From: Bdellovibrionia bacterium
GTDB taxonomy: Bacteria; Bdellovibrionota; Bdellovibrionia; Bdellovibrionales; JAGQZY01
Assembly: GCA_030427805.1 (NCBI GenBank)
Contig: JAUICP010000009.1
Location: forward strand, 1-64,000
DNA length: 64,000 nucleotides
Direction: 5' to 3'
In this document: piece after piece, positions 29,779 to 50,209 of the stretch
How the letters are laid out: the number at the start of each line of letters is the position of its first letter
Numbering within the stretch: the stretch's first letter is position 1
Notes under the pieces: generated by a model
Told to the model about the DNA's origin: nothing
Seen by the model: only the letters and a program-made list of their open reading frames with translations
Databases searched by the model: none
Program-made: the position numbers and the translations under genes

Positions 29779-30846
29779 ATGAAACGACACCTCTTTAGAA
29801 AAGTTATCACCATCATAGTATGTTGTACGTTGGCGACGGAGGGTTTTGCTGTGACTTACACAGTTAAAAGAGGTGATACACTGTCTGAAATAGCAGGGAA
29901 GTATCTCAGGGGAAGCATCTATGGCGCAGTCGGGAGCTTAAAGAAGCTTTTGGCTGAAAACTCTCATATCAAAAACGCTGACTATATCAAAACGGGTGAA
30001 GTCATCGAGCTCCCAGACGACATTTTGAAGAACATAGACGATGTACTCGCCAGTTCGAATGATTTCTCTAGGTCCTCCGAGAAAGAGAATCTTTCCCAAA
30101 CCGAAGAACCCGAGAGCCTTTATCCAGAAGAAGTTTTGGGTCAAGAGAAGTTCATCAATCAGAGAAAGGACCCTGCCTCAATTGACAGTTTCAAAACCTA
30201 CAGTTCTTTTGGCTTTTATCCAAGCCTTGGTTTTTCGAGGCTTGATAGCACTCAAACAGGAAGTGGTTCTGCAGTTTCAGAGCTTGGCATTGGTGGTTTG
30301 ATTGATTGGACAGTTCACTTTAGCGAGTCTTTTGAAGCCCAGGTTTATTTTAATTTGATGGACTACAACTACGAGTCCTCTCAAAGCTCAACTCTCACTG
30401 ATTCCAAAGGCTCATTGGCTGAATTTGGCTTTGGAGTTACAAAGAGGTTTACGGAGCGGTTTAAATTTGGTGGAAAATTGGGATACAGAAGCTCTCCTTA
30501 CTTGAGGGCTACCAACCAGAATACTGGGGCAGTTGAAAATGTGCAGACTGCAGTACTTCGAGCAGCTCCCAAGTATGACATCTTGAAATTCCAGGACTTA
30601 AGCGTCGAGCTGAATGCTCCTATCGAGTATGAGTTTTCAGGAACGGGTCCCAATATAACAACAGATGGAGGCTTTGGTTACGGCTTAGGTCTCGAGCTAA
30701 GACATGAGACCTCTTGGGGTGAAATAAATGCTGGTGGTATTTATAGGCGTCTTGATGGTGGCTTTAGAAACGCCACCACTTCAACTCAGGAGATTAGGTC
30801 CTACCTTGGAATCAGATACAACATCGGAGGGAAGAAAAATGATTAA
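29779..30846 (+). CDS. LysM domain plus outer-membrane beta-barrel protein
   Basis: This 355-residue protein has a signal peptide ending near GFA, then one LysM domain near residues 26-75 (TYTVKRGDTLSEIAGKYLRG and YIKTGEVIELP) for peptidoglycan binding. A charged linker leads to a C-terminal region of alternating beta strands (FGFYPSLGFSRLDS, FEAQVYFNLMDYNYESSQ, ending YLGIRYNIGG) typical of an outer-membrane barrel. It could tie the outer membrane to the wall or form a surface site for mating contact. It overlaps the LamG lipoprotein gene by 8 bp, so the two probably work together. Confidence 0.75.
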   Translation: MKRHLFRKVITIIVCCTLATEGFAVTYTVKRGDTLSEIAGKYLRGSIYGAVGSLKKLLAENSHIKNADYIKTGEVIELPDDILKNIDDVLASSNDFSRSSEKENLSQTEEPESLYPEEVLGQEKFINQRKDPASIDSFKTYSSFGFYPSLGFSRLDSTQTGSGSAVSELGIGGLIDWTVHFSESFEAQVYFNLMDYNYESSQSSTLTDSKGSLAEFGFGVTKRFTERFKFGGKLGYRSSPYLRATNQNTGAVENVQTAVLRAAPKYDILKFQDLSVELNAPIEYEFSGTGPNITTDGGFGYGLGLELRHETSWGEINAGGIYRRLDGGFRNATTSTQEIRSYLGIRYNIGGKKND

Positions 30847-33800
30847 GATTCTCTCTATCTTGCTATTTCTTTCACTGCTATTAACAGGCTGTAAAAACCC
30901 GTTAGGTGATGCGGACCCGTTTTCGGACACCTTCTGTGCTGGTAATACGGACCCAACAATTGATGAAGAGTGTAACCCTATCAGCCAAGACCCGGATACA
31001 TCCATTTTATCATGGGATTTTTTGAATTCTGGGGATTATTCGTTTAATTCGAATTATGTCGAGGTGACCGGAGGGACTGCAAGTTTAAAAACTGTTGATC
31101 AGTCGTTCTCGGGAACCGACTTCAATAGTGGTAGCCATGTGGGGACCTCTGTTTCGGGAAGCGATGTGACGCTGTTGACGAAACCCACCTCAGATTCAAC
31201 TCATGTGAATACGATTCTTCCAGATAAGACTTCATCGTTGCTTGGCTACTGGCGACTTAACTCGAATCTTGAAGACGAAACCAGTCAAACGAATGCCTCA
31301 GTAGGTGGAGGAAGCCCGACCCTTTCATCACAAAGTCCCATCGACAGTTCCAGCTATGACTTCGACGGTGCTATTGACTATTTAAGCATAGACAACAGCA
31401 CTTTGTTCAATGCATCGAATGATTTGGTTGTTAGCCTATGGATAAACCCGGGGCGTTTGAATAATGCTGACACCATAATTTCAAGGTGGGATGAGAGTAC
31501 AAACAATCGAATTTGGGCAATCGCATTCTCAAGCTCTTCAAACCTGCGTTTTGATACCTCCGACAATGGGATCTTTGAATCCGGGAACACAGCGACAAGT
31601 TCATCTGCCCTTTCTTCAGGTCAGTGGTATCATGTTGTGGTCGAGCACAATTCTGGCACAAGTGAAAACAGGATCTTCGTCAACGGTCAGCTCGAGGCAA
31701 CACAGTCTTCAGTAGATTCCAATCTCTTTAACTCAACGCAAGAAATCAGAGTCGGCTCGAGCAATCAGTTTGGGTCCAGCCCCAGGTTCTATGAAGGCTT
31801 AGTTGATGATATTGCCATTTGGTCCGACACCATCACCGAAAGCGAAGTGCAAACGCTGTATGAGCAGCAAAAGCAGAACTTCACAGAGCTCTCGTCAACA
31901 TGGACACCTCAATGGGACAATATCGTCGGTTACTGGAAGATGGATGGGAACTGGCAAGACTCTTCTGGCAATGAGAATCATGGAAGCCCGATGGCATCCC
32001 CTGAGTTTACGATTGGATCGAAAGTTGGTAGCCAGTCAGGTTTTTTTATAAGTGGAGAGGCTGATTTCATAGATGTCCCGCATGCAAGCTCAATGGACTC
32101 TACTGAGTTAACTGTAATGTCATGGGCAAAATCTAATGCTTTCGGTGCCTACAGGCATATCCTTGGTAAAACAACTGCCGGAAGCTGGACTGATGGATAT
32201 GGTTTGGGCTACTTTACAAATTCTGATGAAATCAATTTTTGGATTAATCAGTGGAATGCAGCGGGGGTCGTTACTGCTGATTTTCCAGAAGATCGATGGT
32301 TCCATGTCGTTGGTACTTATGATGGGAGCACCATTCGCTTATACGTTGATGGGGTGCTCAAAGACTCAGTTTCTTATTCAACTCCAATAAATCATTCCTC
32401 TGCAGATTTTAATATAGCTGGTATTGTTGACTCCTATTGGTGGAATGGAGAGCTAGATGATTCTTCAATTTGGTCAACGGCTTTAAGCCCCTCTCAAATT
32501 AGGACTATTTATGATCGTCAAAAACAAAAGTACTCAGGTCACTATGATTCGCCCATTATTGATCTTGGCTCGGCAGGTAACTGGACAAACCTTGATACCG
32601 TCACGTCCCTTCCTTTCGGCAAAGAAATCGTCGCCCAGGGCAGTGAGAGTTCATCCGACTATTCCGATTTAAGTGGGGATTTGAACAATGGTTTGATTGG
32701 CCTGTGGACCTTCAATGAGACAGCAACTGGCACAGCACCGAGTGGGACGGATTTTGAAGATCTTTCTGGGAATGGAAGTCACGCAACTGGATTTAATGCT
32801 CCGACACTGGGTGTTCAGGCTAAGCTTGGAAGAGGGGTACAGCTTAATCAAGCAGCTAACGAATATGTTAGGATACTGGCTCCATCGGGACAAACGGCTC
32901 TCGACGCTACAAGTGATTTTAGCACTTCGATTTGGTTTTACTATGACCCGAGCTATGATGTCTCAGGTAATTCGCGTCATCAGTTTATGTTTATTGGAAC
33001 TTCCGGAGGAGGATACCTTTTGGACTTCCAAGCCATGGATGGAGTTTCTGGAGCTTCTGGACAAATTCGTGCAACTCTTTACGATGGGTCTGCCTCTGCA
33101 GGACCGGTAACGGCAAATGGTGGACTTACAGAAGCGCGATTTTACCATCTTGTCGCTACAAGAAGTGGATCCAATGTCGAAATTTATATTGATGGTGTGG
33201 CTTCAAGCACCTCGTCTGGAGACATTTCCTCAGTTGACTTTAGCGGACAAACAGTTTCCCTGATCTATTTTGGATTGAATTCACATAACACCATCGACGA
33301 GGCCGCCTTTTGGTCCAGAGCCCTCACACCAACAGAAGTCCAACAGCTCTACCGCCGAGGTGCCAATCGAATCAAATACCAAGTAAAGAGTTGCGTAGAC
33401 TCTTCTTGTAATTGCAAGTCCTATAACACTTCGCCTGTCGGATCGGCATCAGATTGTGATGGTGATGGGACTCCAAATAGTACTGATACAGATGATATCT
33501 ACATGGCTGAGTTCATCGGCCCCGGTGGAGATGGGTCGACCCAATATAGCGAGCTCTTTAACCGTGCACCTGCTGATCTAACCTTTAATTGCACGGCCAA
33601 TACATCTGATTCTGACAACGATATCTGTGTTGATGATGAAATTACACTTGAAGGTGACACCAATGCCACTCCACCAAGTTTTACCTTCTCGGATATGGCT
33701 ACCTCAGCCGCTCCTGCAAACAACCGATATTTTCAATATCGTGTTTTGATGGAGGCTGAAGACAACACAGCTTGCTCTGGTGAACCCTGCTTGCCAGAAC

Positions 33801-34165
33801 TCACCAGTGTTGAGGTTGGACCAACGGGTCGATACTACGGTGGATCACCGGTGATTTCATCAAACTCACCACTGAGTTTTGATAATATCCAGTCGATGAG
33901 TTTCACAGAGGGTGGCTCTTGTTCGACGACTTACCAACTCTCGCCTGATGGATCGACATACTATTATTTCGATGGCACCAATTGGGCGGCCGCAGGCTCG
34001 GAGACTGTGGGCCTAAGTAGTTCTTCAAGTCAGATTACTTCGAATATTAGCTCTTTTGCTGGGTCTGCGGGCACAGGTAACCTTTATTTCAAAGCCTTTT
34101 TGACCTCTGACACAAGCCAAGCTTGTACAATTGATAACATCTCACTCACTAAAGAGGTTGAGTAA
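30839..34165 (+). CDS. Large LamG-domain surface lipoprotein
   Basis: I start at the ATG at 30839 (ribosome-binding site GGAGGG), giving 1108 residues. The N-terminus is a lipoprotein signal (ILLFLSLLLTGC, Cys18). At least three concanavalin-like LamG repeats follow, each starting with a LGYWRLN, VGYWKMDGN or IGLWTFNE type strand and containing WYHVVVEHNSGTSENRIFVNG-like strands. A calcium-binding-like stretch (DCDGDGTPNSTDTDD) follows the third. The protein is rich in Ser and Thr with few basic residues, as expected outside the cell. It is probably an adhesin or ligand-binding protein carried by the element, co-expressed with the LysM/barrel protein. Confidence 0.82.
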   Translation: MIKILSILLFLSLLLTGCKNPLGDADPFSDTFCAGNTDPTIDEECNPISQDPDTSILSWDFLNSGDYSFNSNYVEVTGGTASLKTVDQSFSGTDFNSGSHVGTSVSGSDVTLLTKPTSDSTHVNTILPDKTSSLLGYWRLNSNLEDETSQTNASVGGGSPTLSSQSPIDSSSYDFDGAIDYLSIDNSTLFNASNDLVVSLWINPGRLNNADTIISRWDESTNNRIWAIAFSSSSNLRFDTSDNGIFESGNTATSSSALSSGQWYHVVVEHNSGTSENRIFVNGQLEATQSSVDSNLFNSTQEIRVGSSNQFGSSPRFYEGLVDDIAIWSDTITESEVQTLYEQQKQNFTELSSTWTPQWDNIVGYWKMDGNWQDSSGNENHGSPMASPEFTIGSKVGSQSGFFISGEADFIDVPHASSMDSTELTVMSWAKSNAFGAYRHILGKTTAGSWTDGYGLGYFTNSDEINFWINQWNAAGVVTADFPEDRWFHVVGTYDGSTIRLYVDGVLKDSVSYSTPINHSSADFNIAGIVDSYWWNGELDDSSIWSTALSPSQIRTIYDRQKQKYSGHYDSPIIDLGSAGNWTNLDTVTSLPFGKEIVAQGSESSSDYSDLSGDLNNGLIGLWTFNETATGTAPSGTDFEDLSGNGSHATGFNAPTLGVQAKLGRGVQLNQAANEYVRILAPSGQTALDATSDFSTSIWFYYDPSYDVSGNSRHQFMFIGTSGGGYLLDFQAMDGVSGASGQIRATLYDGSASAGPVTANGGLTEARFYHLVATRSGSNVEIYIDGVASSTSSGDISSVDFSGQTVSLIYFGLNSHNTIDEAAFWSRALTPTEVQQLYRRGANRIKYQVKSCVDSSCNCKSYNTSPVGSASDCDGDGTPNSTDTDDIYMAEFIGPGGDGSTQYSELFNRAPADLTFNCTANTSDSDNDICVDDEITLEGDTNATPPSFTFSDMATSAAPANNRYFQYRVLMEAEDNTACSGEPCLPELTSVEVGPTGRYYGGSPVISSNSPLSFDNIQSMSFTEGGSCSTTYQLSPDGSTYYYFDGTNWAAAGSETVGLSSSSSQITSNISSFAGSAGTGNLYFKAFLTSDTSQACTIDNISLTKEVE

Positions 34166-40024: not shown

Positions 40025-40052
40025 AGAGTGGCCTTTAGTCGTGTAAGGTCGA

Positions 40053-40175
40053 CCAATTCTCTTATCCGCTTCAAATACTTTGTTATCTTCGTAATCTCGT
40101 CGCTGCGACGTATTTCAATACGACTCGCTCCTCAATCACTCGATGCCGCGTCTTTGAAGCGGATAAGAGAATTGG
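40053..40175. repeat. Perfect 23-bp inverted repeat beside the right end
   Basis: The arms at 40053-40075 (CCAATTCTCTTATCCGCTTC and three more bases) and 40153-40175 are perfect reverse complements, separated by 77 bp. The spacer itself holds smaller hairpins such as CGTATTTCAATACG. The repeat lies between the HTH gene and the right attachment site. It could be recombinase arm sites, a cruciform such as a transfer origin, or a mobile repeat. Confidence 0.8.
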
Positions 40176-40202
40176 TTTGCTTGGCGGAACTTGAGGTTGA
40201 GC

Positions 40203-40275
40203 GTTTTGCTGAGCAAAACTACGCTGGTTCACGAGCTGGAGAGCTCGCAGGCAGGATGCCGAGGAGCGAGGCTCC
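40203..40275. repeat. Array of four hairpins next to the right attachment site
   Basis: Four inverted repeats follow each other within 73 bp: GTTTTGCT-G-AGCAAAAC (40203-40219), CGAGCT-GGAG-AGCTCG (40232-40247), GGCA-GGA-TGCC (40250-40260) and GGAGC-GAG-GCTCC (40263-40275). The last ends 7 bp before the attachment core. The region is non-coding as far as I can tell. From 40176 to 40429 no gene other than the shadow of these repeats is supported. Confidence 0.75.
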
Positions 40276-40282
40276 AGCGAGA

Positions 40283-40300
40283 CAGTCGGGCCGACCATTT
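40283..40300 (+). repeat. Right attachment repeat (attR core)
   Basis: This is the second copy of CAGTCGGGCCGACCATTT, identical to 7138-7155. It carries only the last 15 nt of a tRNA-Pro, so no second tRNA is formed. Sequence right of it is ordinary chromosome, and sequence left of it is the hairpin array of the element. Confidence 0.9.
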
Positions 40301-40429
40301 TAACTACAGATCTACTTCGTTTCTTGAAAACTCTATTCGCTCGGATTCGGTCACCTACCTTTTGTAGGCTCCCTTCATCTCTCTCTCATAGATTTCCAAG
40401 AAACTCGTATCTCTTTGTGAAAATTGGTC

Positions 40430-41231
40430 TCACTTTGGCGAATCTTGTTTCGCTCGGACTTTAAGGCCCTCCGAGACTTGGAAATTATCAAATCGGGCGT
40501 GAACATTGAGGTAGTTACCATCTTTATCTTTAGGTGCATCTCTGAGGCTGCCCCCGCCATGGAAAGTAGAGAAAAGGAACTTGGAAATTCTGTGATCTTT
40601 TTTCTTGCCACTCCAAAACCTTAGATTTTTATGATGAACGAGTAGCTTTCCGTCGACATAAACTCTCGCTTCGCCATCGGACTTATTTGCAGATGAATTA
40701 AGCTGTGTGTAAAGCGTGACCGAGTAATACCGTCCCTTTTTAAATTGAAACTGATCATTGGATTGAGAAGCTCCCCAGCGATGAGCTCGATCTTGAGTGT
40801 AGAGAAGCGTAGAAATTCTGCCGTTTTTTTTTGAAGCCCACTCGAGATGACCAATTATAAGGAGCAAGCGGCTGGCCTGCTCGAACATTGTGGTCTGTTC
40901 CCACTCCATGCATTTTCCCCCCTAACATAAATTGGAAATCTTCGAGGAAATACACATCATAGGAAAGGCTTGCTTTAGTAACCTTGCGGGAGAGGTTGAA
41001 AAAGCCCTTTACTCTAATACTTCCTTTAAAAATTGAAATGTACATGAGTTGGAGTGCTTTAGAATTTTTGACACCAGCATTTTCTACGATACTTACTTCG
41101 TGCCCGTGGGATACGAGGTCGTTAAAAATGATGGACGACTCACCAGTTTCGAAGTCATCAAAGAAGAGAGTCTCTGAGAATGATAGGGCTGGCCAGCAGA
41201 TAATCAGTGCGAGAATGATGTGTTTTCCCAT
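40430..41231 (-). pseudogene. Polysaccharide-lyase-like secreted protein, frameshifted
   Basis: Two overlapping frames (41231 to 40755, and 40909 to 40430) join into one protein of about 266 residues with a signal peptide (MGKHIILALIICWPALS). The pattern SYDVYFLEDFQFMLGGKMHG, FQFKKGRYYSVTLYTQLNSS, ARVYVDGKLLVH and KFLFSTFHGGG is that of PL14-type alginate/polysaccharide lyases. The frames part at a run of nine A on the minus strand (40824-40832); eight A would give one frame (FKKNGRIS). This may be a real or reversible loss of function or an assembly error. It is the first chromosomal gene beyond the element. Confidence 0.7.
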
Positions 41232-43612: not shown

Positions 43613-45265
43613 ATGACATTTGGACGAACACTTTTAAAGTATGCATTTTTACTCACTTCTTTATTTCTCTTAGGTGCTTGTTCACCACTTCATCAAGGTA
43701 ATAATGATTTAGCATCCTCTTCAGCCTGCGGCGGAGGCGGTATCGGTGATTTCTGGAATCCTTCAGGCGCAGGTGAAAACCCAATCTGTAATAATCCTGA
43801 CGTCGTTGATGGCCCTGGATCTGAAGAAGGGACTGAAGGTACTGAAGAAGCGGAACAGCCGCCACTGATCGTAGGCAAAGTCACATTAGATGATGTTGTT
43901 AATAAGCTGCCAAAGGCAGCCGACTCTTTTGCGATGGCCTGTCAGCTTTCTAATGGATTAGATAATCTCTTCACCCGAAACTACTGTAACGGGCAAGATC
44001 GACCGGCTAATTTAGATGAGCTTTTTAATACTTTAGATGTTCAAAATGGTCGTCTGGCAGTGACCTTAAATACTGGTGGTTTAACGGCCGAGGAAGTCAC
44101 GGCCATGACTCCGCGATTTATTTTATTCCCGCAAAATGCGGATCAAAATCCAGATGGTGCTTTTTGTGTGACTGCATACGCTCGGGGGAAGCACGGTTTT
44201 GTTGAAGCTATTTGTCGAAATGTCGGAACCGATATAGATGCTCCAAATAATTTCAGCTTCTATCTCTTTGATTACGATCTCAATTGTGAAGCCAATGACA
44301 CTTGTAATAATGGAAATTTCTTTGGTCCAACAGCCGAAACCGATTGGGCCCAGGTATCAGTCCATGAAAATACGATACTTCAAAACACTGTATTAGACTG
44401 TTCTCAGTGTCACCAGGCAGGAGGAACTGCCGCTCGAAACAACCTGCGAATGCCTGCTCGGGCTAATCCTTGGTTTGGTTGGTGTAGAAATAATAGACCG
44501 AGTGGGATAGCGGTCTTAAATATTTTAGATGATGTCCATGGCAACAATACCTATGCGACAGTGAATCCTAATAATTTCGACAATTGTGATCCCGCAGACC
44601 TTGAAGATCTTGTCATCGCTGTTGGAAATAGAAACTCTGTAGGTAATAGTACAGTCAACTCGAACAATGTTCAGGATGATAACGACAATACAACGGGTGG
44701 AACCTTCTTGCCCGATAATGCGAACGATCCCGATAACGACATTTTTAGTGATGATCTTTCAAATCGAGTGATCGGAATGATCGATGACCTCGAAAACGAC
44801 GATCTTAGCGATGGTGTGAACGAACTCTTTCCTCACAAAGGATCGATTATCGCACCTGTTGTGAATAACACGCTTGATAATTTAACAACTCAGTACAATC
44901 AATTTCTCAATGGCCAGGTCGATAACATTGACGACCCATTAACAGTAAACACTGATAACGAAAATGTTTTAAGGCAAGCTGGTAAAATGATTTACCCAGC
45001 TGGCTTAGACGGGCAAGCGCTTCTTAGAAGAGCCTGTGCTCAGTGCCATAACTCTGCTTTGAGGCAAGATATTTCGCGAGCATTATTTAATGTCGACCTA
45101 GATGAGATGGGCGCTGCTAGAAATGTGGAAATTGATAAGGCCGTTGCTCGTATCGACCTAGAGTCCGACGACGCTCGATTAATGCCACCACTTTTTCACG
45201 GTCACTTGTCAGCAGATGAAAAGCAACGATTAAAGGACTATTTGCAGAGTCAAAAAGCGCCATAA
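43613..45265 (+). CDS. Dihaem c-type cytochrome-like lipoprotein
   Basis: I start at the ATG at 43613 (GGGGGG upstream), giving 550 residues. The lipoprotein signal is LTSLFLLGACS. Two haem-binding CxxCH motifs are far apart: CSQCH (in NTVLDCSQCHQAGG) and CAQCH (in LLRRACAQCHNSALRQ). A long Asn/Asp-rich, low-complexity stretch lies between them. The C-terminus (ARLMPPLFHGHLSADEKQRLKDYLQ) is typical of a cytochrome c with a methionine ligand. It leads a three-gene block with the next cytochrome and the permease-UnbV fusion. Role in electron transfer or metal chemistry is inferred. Confidence 0.72.
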   Translation: MTFGRTLLKYAFLLTSLFLLGACSPLHQGNNDLASSSACGGGGIGDFWNPSGAGENPICNNPDVVDGPGSEEGTEGTEEAEQPPLIVGKVTLDDVVNKLPKAADSFAMACQLSNGLDNLFTRNYCNGQDRPANLDELFNTLDVQNGRLAVTLNTGGLTAEEVTAMTPRFILFPQNADQNPDGAFCVTAYARGKHGFVEAICRNVGTDIDAPNNFSFYLFDYDLNCEANDTCNNGNFFGPTAETDWAQVSVHENTILQNTVLDCSQCHQAGGTAARNNLRMPARANPWFGWCRNNRPSGIAVLNILDDVHGNNTYATVNPNNFDNCDPADLEDLVIAVGNRNSVGNSTVNSNNVQDDNDNTTGGTFLPDNANDPDNDIFSDDLSNRVIGMIDDLENDDLSDGVNELFPHKGSIIAPVVNNTLDNLTTQYNQFLNGQVDNIDDPLTVNTDNENVLRQAGKMIYPAGLDGQALLRRACAQCHNSALRQDISRALFNVDLDEMGAARNVEIDKAVARIDLESDDARLMPPLFHGHLSADEKQRLKDYLQSQKAP

Positions 45266-45320
45266 TCTTGATACAAAAAATTAATTTGGGTGTTTTGTGC
45301 ACAATTTCTGGGGGGATAAC

Positions 45321-46004
45321 TTGGCGCATTTTAGGGGTTACATTTGTTTAATGGTCTTGTCTTTTGCCCTACTGGGTTGTGACGAAGGTTTTAAGGCGAA
45401 AGGGTCCGATGAAGCTTCGGACCTATCGACCATTGATTTCAATTCAGAGTATCTTGACATTCCATTTGCAGAACTGGAAACGAAGGCCAGCGAGGTTTTG
45501 CAGACTCGCTGTGCAAGCTGCCATAGTGCCGGTGGAACTGGAGCCGCTGCCATTCCTGATATAATGGATACTAACGATCTTCTGCGCCGGGGACTCATTG
45601 TACCTAATCATCCCGTCAATTCTAAACTTTTTGTGGATGTTTGGGATGGTCGAATGCCTTCGAATGGAGAATCCCTTACCAAGGACGAACTAGAAATCAT
45701 ACAAATCTGGATTTATCGAGGGGTGCAGGAAGTACCAGATCCCATCTTATTGTCGGACGGAGTGCAAACCGTTTTCGAAGCCAATTGCCTCAGTTGTCAC
45801 AGTCTCATTGGCGGAAATGCCGGCGGGGTCAATCTTGAAAGTTATGACGAAATTATGAAGTATGTTTCTCCGACGGCTAGCCCCGACGAGTCAGTACTTT
45901 TCGATAGTGTGGTGACAGGACGAATGCCAACCACACCAACTAAATTACAGCAAAGAGATTTAGCAATCATTTATAACTGGTTATGGGCGGGGGCCAACGA
46001 ATGA
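45321..46004 (+). CDS. Dihaem cytochrome c lipoprotein
   Basis: The start is TTG at 45321 with GGGGGG 5 nt upstream, giving 227 residues and a lipobox (MVLSFALLGC). Two cytochrome domains each have CxxCH and a distal methionine context: TRCASCHSAGGTG with DGRMPSNGESL, and NCLSCHSLIGG with TGRMPTTPTKL. This is the layout of the PSCyt1-like cytochromes seen in planctomycetes and other surface systems. The stop overlaps the start of the permease fusion (ATGA). Confidence 0.82.
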   Translation: MAHFRGYICLMVLSFALLGCDEGFKAKGSDEASDLSTIDFNSEYLDIPFAELETKASEVLQTRCASCHSAGGTGAAAIPDIMDTNDLLRRGLIVPNHPVNSKLFVDVWDGRMPSNGESLTKDELEIIQIWIYRGVQEVPDPILLSDGVQTVFEANCLSCHSLIGGNAGGVNLESYDEIMKYVSPTASPDESVLFDSVVTGRMPTTPTKLQQRDLAIIYNWLWAGANE

Positions 46005-49000
46005 AAAAGTGGGATATCTTAATTCGATTTACATTAGTATTCTTTTTAGGAGCAATGGGAGCCAGTTATTTTTGGGTAGAATCAAGGTACCCTGCTCTTA
46101 ATGAAAAGGCTCTAATGGCCAACGACAACAAAGTATCTGACTTGATTACTACCTTTCCAGTATACGAGATTAAGCCGGAATACAGTTACGTCAAAAAGGT
46201 ATCGCTTTCGACTGTTAATTGGATTTACGAAAACAAAAAGGGGATGACCGCTGGAGTCTTCTTGGGTGCCATATTTTTAACCTTATTTGGATATTTTAGA
46301 ATACCTGGCTCAAGGAACCCATTTTTAAATTCATTTTATGGATTACTGTTAGGTTCTCCACTTGGGGTCTGTGTTAACTGTGCCGCTCCCATTTTTAAGG
46401 GAGTTTTAAACTCTAAGAGAGTTGAGTTAGCACTTTCGATGATGATGAGCTCACCGACGATGAATGTCGTGGTTTTAACCATGGTGTTCGCTCTCTTTCC
46501 GTTTTATATGGCGGTGACGAAAGTCATTTTTACCTTGGCCATAGTTTTACTCTGCGTCCCACTTCTCTCAAAAATGATCGGTAATAAAAAGAACTTAAAT
46601 GACTGGAAAGGGGACTCGACAGATCAATTAAGTCACGCTTTAGTGGCCCCTTCAATTATCAATGAAGAATCCCTTCGTTGGTGGTCTCCAGTGCTAGCTG
46701 GGCTTAAGGATCTTGCGAGAAACTGGTGGTACATTGTCTCACGTACGGTTCCATTGATGTTTGTTGCAGGGTTTTTAGGAGCGGTTGTTAGTCATGCACT
46801 TCCCCCAGAACTACTGCAAAAAGATATGGGACTTCAAGGTGTTTTTATATTGTCGGCGGCATCCGTGGCGCTGCCGGTGCCCGTTGCTTTCGATGTGATC
46901 CTAAGTAATGCTCTTTTTTCGGCGGGCTTGCCCCATCACTTAGCATTAATACTGTTGTGTACCCTAGGTATCACAAGTATCTATTCCTTTTTCATTGTTT
47001 GGCAAAGTGCCTCGCGAATTTGGGCTCTTTCGGTCGCGGCCGTTGTTTTTGTCGGAGCCATCGGTCTTGGAACTGGAACTAAGAGGTTTAACGAATGGTT
47101 TTATTTACAGCCAAATATAGAGGCTTACCATCATTTAAAAGTCGATCCGAACTTTCTCGAGCCAGAGTCCACGGCAATTGACCGCTATTCGGGACATCCG
47201 ATAGATCAATCGCTATTGAAGGCAGCGGAATCTCTGGACTTAGAAAGAGCCGCTGAAATAAAAAATATTACCCTTGATAAGAGGGCTTTCTTTAAGCCTG
47301 CAAAGTCCAATGAACCACTTCAGTTTACTAAAAAGGAAGGTCACGAAATTGGTCTTACCCACGGTTTTCGCTATGGAATTAGGGATTATCCAGATCCCTT
47401 TTGGCTCGGAAGAGGTACGGCCTCTGGAGATTATGATGGTGATGGGTGGCAGGACATATTGTTTGGTTCGAACACAGGCTTCTATCTTTACAAAAATATG
47501 GGTGGTGAGTTTAAGAAGCAAGAAATCGATAACCCAGTACTTAAAAAGCTTCGTGTTTACGGTGTTGCTTTTGTCGATTTTAATAATGACTCCTGGCTTG
47601 ATATTTTCTTTAGCACATATGCTCAAGGTAACTACATTCTCGTCAACAAAAATGGAAAGTATGACTACAGTGATTTGGTTAAAGTGCCCAATAATAAGGC
47701 TGTCATTACTGTAAGCCCTTCTTTTGCGGATGTAGATGGTAATGGCTATGTAGATATAGTTAACGGCAATATGGCTCTAGGAATTGTGACGGGATACTAT
47801 CGATATTCTCGTCGCCGAAATAATTCACTAACTTTTGTTAAGCCGGACTTAGAATTCAAAGAAAGAATTTTTAATGAACAATCGGGCGAGACTATGTCCT
47901 CTCTAGTTTCAGATCTCAATGGCGATAATTTGCCCGATATTTACTTTAGTAATGATTTTAGAGTCGCAGACGAAATACATTTATCCCGCCAGGGTGGGGG
48001 ATTTAAACGGGTTCTCAAAGACGATCAGTTTATTTCCTCCACTCCTTATTTTTCAATGAGTGTGGATAGTGGTGATTTAAATAATGACGGAATTACGGAT
48101 CTCATCACCACAGGTACCATTCAAATGAAAGAAGAGATTGGGAGTGAAAATATTGATGGGAAGACACCAGCTGATTATACCCAAGTTAAGTTTGGCTTAG
48201 AGCAATGTGAGGGCATCAAAGATCAAGTAGTTCGAGACAACTGTAAACTCGTTCGCCAGGCCGACTTGGCAGTCAACTTTCACCGTAAGCGAAGTCTCAG
48301 TGTTGACTCCTGTCATCAGCTTTCCAGTAAAAGAGACCGGCAAGACTGTCTTCTTTCGACGATGTGGATGATTGTCACCAGTACAAAAAAACTCCCAAAA
48401 TGTAGTGTTGAATTTAAAAACGACCCATTTATACAAGGGGTGTGTGAACTTCTTGACGAAAGACGTCGCACCTACCGCGACAAGGATTTCAAAGACTATA
48501 TAGCGCAAAAGCGAGATAGTTTTATATACCTTGGTACTGACACCGGAGGTATGATCGATTTCAACAAAAAAATGGGAGACGGAAGTTACTTCTTTCCGGG
48601 TGGTTGGACTTGGAATACCCGCATGGTGGACCTCGACAATGATGGCTGGCAAGATATCTTCGGTGCCGATGGCTCGATTCGAGGGCAAGGTTATGGCTGG
48701 AATATCTACTTAAAAAACATGCAGGGTAAAAAGTTCGAACAAAAACAGTTTTCTTCCAATTTAACTGATGACTTTAATCTATTTTCTTACGTGACTGTTG
48801 ATTTTGACAACGATGGTGATCTGGACATTATAGGTAACTCCTCATCGGGGCCGATTCAGGTTTATGAAAACCATTCCTCGAGTGCCAATAACTCTGTAAG
48901 CATTTCTTTACGCGATCAATCTGGGAATAGTTACGGTGTCGGAGCTAAAGTTTATCTTCAGTACAAAAACAATCAGACCCAAGTACAAGAAATGAAGGGT

Positions 49001-49210
49001 AGTGGCGGTTATCTTAGTTTTAATCCCTATGTTTTGCATTTTGGCCTGGGAAAAGACAAAGAAGCTCAATCTGTTAAAGTCATTTGGCGCGACGGAGAAA
49101 TCACAGAGCTGAAGGGCCCCTTTGCTGCGAATAATCATTATCGCATTTCTCGCAATAAAGAGATTCTGCCGGTCAGTCAGTTGCGCTCGCCCGCGAGTAA
49201 GACTAAGTGA
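46001..49210 (+). CDS. Permease (DUF318/ArsP-like) fused to FG-GAP/UnbV domain
   Basis: This 1069-residue protein starts at ATG 46001. Residues 1-370 form about nine membrane segments of the DUF318 permease family, with the signature GVCVNCAAPIFKG followed by SMMMSSPTMNVVVLTMV. Residues 430-1060 are extracytoplasmic, with at least seven FG-GAP/VCBS calcium-binding repeats (SGDYDGDGWQDILFG, FVDFNNDSWLDIFF, SDLNGDNLPDIYF, VDFDNDGDLDIIG). The C-terminus is an ASPIC/UnbV domain (GVGAKVYLQYKNNQ, VIWRDGEITELKGP). A cysteine-rich insert of about 100 residues interrupts the repeats. It overlaps the upstream cytochrome by 4 bp. I know of no such fusion. Confidence 0.82.
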   Translation: MKKWDILIRFTLVFFLGAMGASYFWVESRYPALNEKALMANDNKVSDLITTFPVYEIKPEYSYVKKVSLSTVNWIYENKKGMTAGVFLGAIFLTLFGYFRIPGSRNPFLNSFYGLLLGSPLGVCVNCAAPIFKGVLNSKRVELALSMMMSSPTMNVVVLTMVFALFPFYMAVTKVIFTLAIVLLCVPLLSKMIGNKKNLNDWKGDSTDQLSHALVAPSIINEESLRWWSPVLAGLKDLARNWWYIVSRTVPLMFVAGFLGAVVSHALPPELLQKDMGLQGVFILSAASVALPVPVAFDVILSNALFSAGLPHHLALILLCTLGITSIYSFFIVWQSASRIWALSVAAVVFVGAIGLGTGTKRFNEWFYLQPNIEAYHHLKVDPNFLEPESTAIDRYSGHPIDQSLLKAAESLDLERAAEIKNITLDKRAFFKPAKSNEPLQFTKKEGHEIGLTHGFRYGIRDYPDPFWLGRGTASGDYDGDGWQDILFGSNTGFYLYKNMGGEFKKQEIDNPVLKKLRVYGVAFVDFNNDSWLDIFFSTYAQGNYILVNKNGKYDYSDLVKVPNNKAVITVSPSFADVDGNGYVDIVNGNMALGIVTGYYRYSRRRNNSLTFVKPDLEFKERIFNEQSGETMSSLVSDLNGDNLPDIYFSNDFRVADEIHLSRQGGGFKRVLKDDQFISSTPYFSMSVDSGDLNNDGITDLITTGTIQMKEEIGSENIDGKTPADYTQVKFGLEQCEGIKDQVVRDNCKLVRQADLAVNFHRKRSLSVDSCHQLSSKRDRQDCLLSTMWMIVTSTKKLPKCSVEFKNDPFIQGVCELLDERRRTYRDKDFKDYIAQKRDSFIYLGTDTGGMIDFNKKMGDGSYFFPGGWTWNTRMVDLDNDGWQDIFGADGSIRGQGYGWNIYLKNMQGKKFEQKQFSSNLTDDFNLFSYVTVDFDNDGDLDIIGNSSSGPIQVYENHSSSANNSVSISLRDQSGNSYGVGAKVYLQYKNNQTQVQEMKGSGGYLSFNPYVLHFGLGKDKEAQSVKVIWRDGEITELKGPFAANNHYRISRNKEILPVSQLRSPASKTK

Positions 49211-49284: not shown

Positions 49285-49313
49285 GATAGTACTATTTATT
49301 TGATAGTACTATC
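49285..49313 (+). promoter_or_regulatory. Twin operator before the small regulator operon
   Basis: The perfect palindrome GATAGTACTATC (49302-49313) is preceded 17 bp upstream by a near copy, GATAGTACTATT (49285-49296). The pair lies just before the ribosome-binding site of the membrane-protein gene whose partner is a winged-helix regulator. It is probably the autoregulatory operator. Confidence 0.6.
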
Positions 49314-49329
49314 CAAGATGGAGGGATCA

Positions 49330-49935
49330 ATGAATCAGCAAGATGCAATTAACAAAATCCAAGAATTTCAAAATATTTTTAGTAGTAGTAATCGGGTTAT
49401 CCTGGCTCCAAAACAAATGATGGCGATCGGTATTGGTCTCTTGTTAGTGCCTGTCATCGAGGTGACAACACAGTATTGGACTTTTGGTTACGAAGTCTCT
49501 GAGGCTATAGCTTCTTGGTTACCTGCTATGAAGGGCCTTTTTTACGGATTGGTCTTTTGGGGAATTGGTCGGTTTTTTCCAGATCCAATGCGAGAAAAGG
49601 CTCACCCAATTATTAAAAAAGCCTTCGGTTTAGAGTACCCAATGGTGGCGGCGATCCTAGCAGTTGCATCTGGTCTCTCTCTAGTTGGAAGTGGCGAACT
49701 TGTGTATCCGCTTGTATTTTTGCTTTTGGGTGTGTTTTACAACTTACTTGGACGGTTTAGCAACTCAACTGTTACAACTGTGTCGTGGCTTTATATTTTG
49801 GCGAGCCCCTTCTATATGTATCTTCTCGATTTTAAAATAGATCGGTTGTGGATGTACTTCATGATATTTCAAGGGCTGACTTGCTTGGCAATCGGCTATT
49901 CTTCTATCAAGCAAAGGCAGACTGATGTCCATTGA
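49330..49935 (+). CDS. Polytopic membrane protein with adjacent regulator
   Basis: The ATG at 49330 (GGAGGG upstream) gives 201 residues. After a polar N-terminus there are about six membrane segments (for example MMAIGIGLLLVPVIEVTT, MVAAILAVASGLSLVG, LVYPLVFLLLGVFYNLLG). It resembles small membrane partners encoded with wHTH regulators. Its 3' end overlaps the regulator gene by 11 bp. Substrate or signal is unknown. Confidence 0.7.
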   Translation: MNQQDAINKIQEFQNIFSSSNRVILAPKQMMAIGIGLLLVPVIEVTTQYWTFGYEVSEAIASWLPAMKGLFYGLVFWGIGRFFPDPMREKAHPIIKKAFGLEYPMVAAILAVASGLSLVGSGELVYPLVFLLLGVFYNLLGRFSNSTVTTVSWLYILASPFYMYLLDFKIDRLWMYFMIFQGLTCLAIGYSSIKQRQTDVH

Positions 49936-50209
49936 GATTGATGATCTGATTCATCAGCCTGTAAGAACTAAGATCATGGCTTACTTAGGTAACCGTGGAG
50001 AGACCGACTTTAGTGAGCTTAAGCGAGCCCTTGAATTGAGTGATGGGCATATGAGCACCCATATTAAAAAACTCATTGAAGGCGAGTACGTAGAAATGAC
50101 AAAGGCATTTATCGATAATAAGCCAAAGACGACCTATAAGCTGTCAAAATTAGGACGCCGCCGTCTCGTAAAATACCTCGACAATCTAAAAGCTTTGATA
50201 GAAGCTTAG
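49925..50209 (+). CDS. Winged-helix transcriptional regulator
   Basis: This 94-residue protein is a compact winged helix of the ArsR/HTH_34 type: LIHQPVRTKIMAYLGNRGE, TDFSELKRALELSDGHMSTH, IKKLIEGEYVEMTKAF and the wing TTYKLSKLGRRRLVKYLDNL. It probably represses its own operon through the twin palindromes at 49285-49313. Such small regulators are often paired with a membrane protein. Confidence 0.85.
   Translation: MSIEIDDLIHQPVRTKIMAYLGNRGETDFSELKRALELSDGHMSTHIKKLIEGEYVEMTKAFIDNKPKTTYKLSKLGRRRLVKYLDNLKALIEA

Follow-up and report, generated by a model that had tools for sequence, protein, structure and literature searches.

Known relatives of the fusion

Permeases of the ArsP_1/DUF318 superfamily (PF03773) include the organoarsenical exporter ArsP, which exports methylated arsenicals. 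FG-GAP repeats followed by a UnbV/ASPIC domain are found in cartilage acidic protein 1 (CRTAC1; PDB 9ETN), a secreted protein. Among Cu/Zn efflux proteins of the SO_0444 type (NF033936), Shewanella SO_0444 is required for growth under ZnSO4 or CuCl2 stress (PMC3219624), and a Nitratiruptor gene of this type belongs to a Cd- and Cu-induced cluster together with a cytochrome c and a winged-helix regulator (PMC10092412). The metal/metalloid-type permease and the CRTAC1-like propeller, usually studied apart, are joined in a single conserved protein of Bdellovibrionota and marine roseobacters. We describe this fusion from a window of 64 000 nucleotides (contig C10, 1-64000) of a 4.5 Mb Bdellovibrionia genome (G000), with the congeneric genome G204 for comparison.

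The fusion is a new combination within the known ArsP_1 superfamily and CRTAC1-type modules. It resembles ArsP_1 permeases in its Pfam match and in the site of its first-repeat motif, but this motif reads CxNC rather than CSC or CSH, PxPxxFD replaces the cysteine site of the second repeat, a long extra domain follows, and the permease belongs to a separate clade. No ars-type gene was recognised beside any fusion locus read. The SO_0444 family is approached through a partial match to a roseobacter fusion and through the cytochrome c and winged-helix neighbours in Nitratiruptor. However, the NF033936 model has no propeller; the Tropicibacter fusion scores 47.5 bits against a cut-off of 300 and is thus not an SO_0444 member, and the window's protein gave no match to the model at 1e-3. 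The phmmer match to CRTAC1 (2e-21) reflects the same order of FG-GAP and then UnbV/ASPIC, whereas the fusion joins this module to a permease and a cysteine-rich insert. Proteins of roseobacter plasmids (e.g. WP_282302541.1) share the whole architecture and the six insert cysteines, with 30-32% identity over 92-98% of the length, although they lie in a context of type II secretion and giant Ig-like genes, with no adjoining cytochromes. Intact plasmid copies are annotated only as "FG-GAP-like repeat-containing protein". A literature search under the domain names did not find the fusion, nor, among the papers searched, any that combines the three domain terms, in line with a preliminary description that knew of no described system of this type.

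Architecture of the fusion protein

The fusion gene (46001..49210, + strand, as are all features of the locus given below) encodes 1069 amino acids, with Pfam matches in the order ArsP_1 (E 3e-13; 49.9 bits, cut-off 32.3; profile positions 44-251), FG-GAP_3 (8e-30) and UnbV_ASPIC (3e-18). The permease part (46001..47071, residues 1-357) has about nine hydrophobic segments, and its loop 194-244, 50 residues long, is rich in basic residues and thus matches a simple N-in/C-out arrangement of nine helices only poorly. The FG-GAP region (47363..48880), delimited by profile and direct reading, has seven aspartate/asparagine loops near residues 477, 526, 577, 638, 692, 877 and 934. Between the fifth and sixth loops lies an insert (48206..48445) with six cysteines, C736, 748, 771, 783, 801 and 815, spaced 12-23-12-18-14, and the UnbV_ASPIC domain (48935..49120) covers residues 979-1040. 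The open reading frame, the Pfam matches and the reading of the loops all agree with the preliminary description of an ArsP-like permease of 1069 residues joined to seven FG-GAP repeats, a cysteine-rich insert and UnbV. An AlphaFold2 model built from two sequences reached a pLDDT of 30 and was discarded. The seven blades are predicted from the seven loop motifs, and a closed propeller packed on a TTR-like domain, as in CRTAC1-type proteins, is a putative fold for this module. The propeller, placed outside the cell in the preliminary description, is most likely periplasmic and tethered to an inner-membrane protein. Downstream lies a pair of genes (49300..50209) for a membrane protein (ORF 49300-49935) and a 94-aa protein (49925-50209), the latter judged by eye to be a winged-helix regulator; their order is kept in G204, and the pair is at most a candidate member of the same unit as the fusion.

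Distribution of the fusion

Among 369 genomes of the phylum searched at the protein level, permease, propeller and UnbV occur in one frame in G204, G123, G121 (two copies), G237, G016, G181 and G076, with the UnbV domain of G076 scoring under its cut-off. The halves of the G227 gene fall on two separate short contigs. A scan of genome contigs with a one-sequence query matched the congener only, and beyond the phylum the range of the fusion is known from plasmids alone: tblastn located it on eight roseobacter plasmids, seven of which carry it intact, while both Parasedimentitalea copies are broken, on a plasmid where many other genes are fragmented too. Viral contigs, when searched, held no relatives, and a contig circularity test found no overlap between ends. 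An assembly artefact is ruled out, since eight genomes of the phylum and seven finished plasmids all hold the fusion as a single frame. Since the same fusion occurs in such distant bacteria, it is real, and the possibility that the permease and UnbV parts had been joined by assembly, raised beforehand as the result that would undo the proposal, falls away. The fusion is a true, old and conserved gene family. As a separate observation, one locus (L037, 2331-9854) carries two divergently transcribed fusion paralogues (1041 and about 1440 aa) side by side, adjoining an FG-GAP/PQQ propeller gene.

A distinct permease clade and its cysteines

A profile of the permease half, run against the 369 genomes, matched only the fusion loci and, weakly, one standalone protein; thus, within the phylum, this type of permease exists only as a fusion. 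In a tree to be read with caution given its long branches, 14 fusion permeases split from 18 standalone ArsP_1 proteins by a branch with 100/99 support, and the roseobacter permeases are nearest to the window's (92/97). By this sequence comparison, fusion permeases form a single clade apart from standalone ArsP_1. Four permease residues are invariant in an alignment of 14 sequences: C124, N126 and C127 of the GxPLGVCxNCxAP motif (C124-x-N-C127 at 46370..46381, within a hydrophobic segment) and D298 (46892..46894) of the second-repeat motif P-x-P-x-x-F-D. In the alignment, C124 falls on the leading cysteine of C-S-C or C-S-H in most standalone ArsP_1 proteins, and in the fusion PxPxxFD stands where most of those proteins have their second-repeat cysteine motif; aligned to these relatives, the fusion has no cysteine motif in its second repeat. 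A profile search of the PDB with the permease gave no useful match. The window's genome also encodes an ArsP_1 paralogue (L001, 1324-3333; 669 aa) in which one loop is His-rich and the N-terminus bears an additional membrane region; its gene adjoins others that by eye look metal-related.

The insert cysteines are common to Bdellovibrionota and roseobacters, with a spacing of 12-24-11-18-14 in the roseobacter proteins; across the 14 sequences C736, 748, 771 and 783 are invariant and 801 and 815 nearly so. In addition, the proteins of G123, one of the G121 copies (G121a), G237, G016 and G181 have some 16 to 26 more cysteines in a row between permease and propeller, with a spacing that mostly alternates between about 12 and 18 residues. 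Two such genes (L036, 9482-13726; L037, 5541-9851) have about 26 cysteines there, in pairs roughly 12 apart with a period of about 30. No Pfam model matches this regular two-cysteine repeat, and searching the sequences of solved structures with the cysteine repeats returned nothing useful. The stretch may form disulphide-braced helical hairpins. Thus characterised, the fusion defines a fusion-only permease clade, a two-cysteine repeat without a Pfam match, and, on plasmids, a strict tie to one type II lineage.

The haem lipoprotein genes: a probable local addition

In the window, the fusion is preceded by two genes for cytochrome lipoproteins. Gene A (43613..45265, 550 aa, ATG at 43613) has the lipobox LGAC, a C-terminal cytochrome c domain and two CxxCH motifs, CSQCH (44399-44413) and CAQCH (45035-45049), separated by 212 residues. 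Gene B (45297..46004, 235 aa, lipobox ALLGC) has CASCH (45510-45524) and CLSCH (45786-45800), and matches the profiles Cytochrome_CBB3 (1.8e-11) and PSCyt1 (8e-6) and, partially and under its cut-off, the NCBIfam family LIC11213_lipo. The gap between A and B is 31 bp, and the stop codon of B overlaps the fusion's ATG by 4 bp (ATGA), so the overlap of the fusion with a dihaem lipoprotein gene, and its position behind a second with two distant CxxCH motifs, were described correctly. Compared with G204, dN/dS is 0.056 for A, 0.090 for B and 0.068 for the fusion, which indicates purifying selection on all three.

It had been proposed from this arrangement that permease, propeller and haem lipoproteins work as a single system in which transport is linked to electron flow. 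The tight operon with its 4-bp overlap, present in both genomes of the genus, and the low dN/dS of its genes (0.056-0.09) are what such a system would predict, but no other fusion has A and B beside it, and A has homologues that no fusion accompanies. The recommended search for the same fusion was thus rewarded in genomes of the phylum and on roseobacter plasmids, while the same gene order was found in G000 and G204 only, two genomes of one genus, and the cytochromes are not conserved neighbours. Homologues of A lie away from any fusion in G237, G230, G216, G173 and G165; in G237 the homologue and the fusion are on different contigs, and in G230 it adjoins a B-like gene, with no fusion in the 8 kb read. 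Near the G237 fusion are proteins with two CxxCH motifs, a RoxA-like one among them; these showed no relation to gene A. A haem system is therefore rejected beyond the genus, haem-permease coupling as a family-wide system is already refuted, and a single system of this kind is very doubtful overall. A and B are most plausibly a module of their own, added to the fusion operon at the level of the genus. Of the proposed link between metal transport and electron flow, the metal part remains reasonable from the superfamily, whereas the haem part fails outside the genus.

Gene neighbourhoods and type II secretion

Elsewhere the fusion keeps varied company. In G227, an FG-GAP/UnbV lipoprotein gene, SCO1/SenC and the fusion abut or overlap; in G016, two redoxin/Cu2_monoox_C proteins are encoded near the fusion (at L039, 872-2779 and 5144-7063, with one CxxCH each); and a RoxA-like cytochrome gene lies near that of G237. 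Five of the eight roseobacter plasmids have a giant gene of the Ig-like or DUF11 type downstream of the fusion, and genes for S74 or DUF2793 proteins, sulfotransferases and polysaccharide/glycan export are often nearby. All eight fusion plasmids carry a type II secretion gene set, whose GspD is at least 65% identical to that of Tropicibacter, and the secretin search also matched a GspD (33-37%) on eight further plasmids, none of which has the fusion. A naive Fisher test of this association gives 8e-5, for related plasmids and uncorrected for kinship; because of that relatedness, the association may be mere joint inheritance. No type II genes lie beside any Bdellovibrionota fusion locus read, and GspK (PF03934), detected in 280 of the 369 genomes, was not found in G000, G204 or G181. 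Its absence from the search results for the window's genome led us to reject type II secretion as a general partner. Thus, the link between fusion and type II secretion is strong among related plasmids and is no general rule.

Mechanism and substrate

Our preferred reading of the fusion, which we hold tentatively, is that of an ArsP_1-superfamily secondary permease in the inner membrane, of the soft-metal/metalloid efflux type, with a built-in periplasmic propeller-UnbV module; its topology, substrate class, direction of transport and propeller role are as we infer them. Substrate would bind at the membrane CxNC site and D298, and the permease would deliver or take a thiol-seeking substrate at the periplasmic face. 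There, the seven-bladed FG-GAP propeller with UnbV, braced by disulphide-linked helical hairpins, may receive the substrate, gate the transporter or dock an exported partner. The metal reading is supported by the ArsP_1 match above its cut-off and by the partial NCBIfam matches of the Tropicibacter fusion to the efflux families SO_0444 (Cu/Zn; 1.4e-12) and SaoE (5.5e-9), both far under the member cut-offs. It also draws on the invariant CxNC and D298, aligned to the cysteine sites of ArsP_1, on the SCO1/SenC (G227) and redoxin/Cu2_monoox_C (G016) neighbours, and on the paralogue beside metal-looking genes. In addition, the window's order of cytochrome, fusion, membrane protein and regulator, likened to the SO_0444 cluster of Nitratiruptor, counts in its favour. 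Against it, no neighbour is kept across the family and copper-type neighbours occur at two loci only; the roseobacter context is one of secretion and surface glycans, without metal resistance; ArsP_1 relatives have a second-repeat cysteine that the fusion lacks; and the basic loop 194-244 sits badly with a simple nine-helix topology.

The plasmid context suggests a different role, as an accessory of surface-protein export. The fusion would then be anchored in the inner membrane, and its propeller-UnbV module would act from the periplasm on giant proteins bound for export, by binding, folding or modifying them; in roseobacters these would be proteins of the plasmid-borne type II system, and the permease would supply an ion or small molecule. 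The exclusive pairing of the fusion with one GspD lineage, the giant genes that follow it on five plasmids and the surface-glycan genes nearby all speak for this, but the failure to find GspK in G000, G204 and G181, the type II-free Bdellovibrionota loci and the kinship of the plasmids make it rather unlikely. A combined form is more of a long shot: the permease-propeller-UnbV protein would be a dedicated membrane partner in building exported giant surface proteins, with CxNC supplying a metal or small substrate that the propeller hands on, and would work with one type II lineage on roseobacter plasmids. The cysteines themselves might instead point to a transmembrane thiol relay with DsbD-like logic, in which the membrane CxNC passes reducing power to periplasmic cysteine pairs. 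Such a relay would fit the invariant CxNC, the insert cysteines (four of them invariant, two nearly so), the regularly paired cysteines past the permease, as many as 32, and the SCO1 neighbour in G227. However, ArsP_1 relatives carry cysteines at the same site, and those of the insert have the appearance of structural ones (C-x11-C, with a period of about 30); to our knowledge, no redox role is known for the cysteines of ArsP_1 relatives at this site, and we regard a relay as highly improbable. Rhodobacteraceae M382, a roseobacter host of the fusion (gene K3727_21700), is genetically tractable (PMC10090131), so the function of the fusion is directly testable.

Other features of the window

About 33 kb of the window (7152-40047) are absent from G204, whose contig has both flanks about 1.3 kb apart. 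This stretch carries TraC/TraG-like, TrbI, FtsK and replication-relaxation genes (11-20 kb) and thus resembles a conjugative element that only one of the strains has. On the border of this variable region, 385 bases (40047-40431) are 98% identical to G204, compared with about 92% for neighbouring sequence, and are possibly a repeat. The window also encodes (30728-34165) a protein of 1145 aa with three concanavalin-like (Laminin_G_3) stretches.
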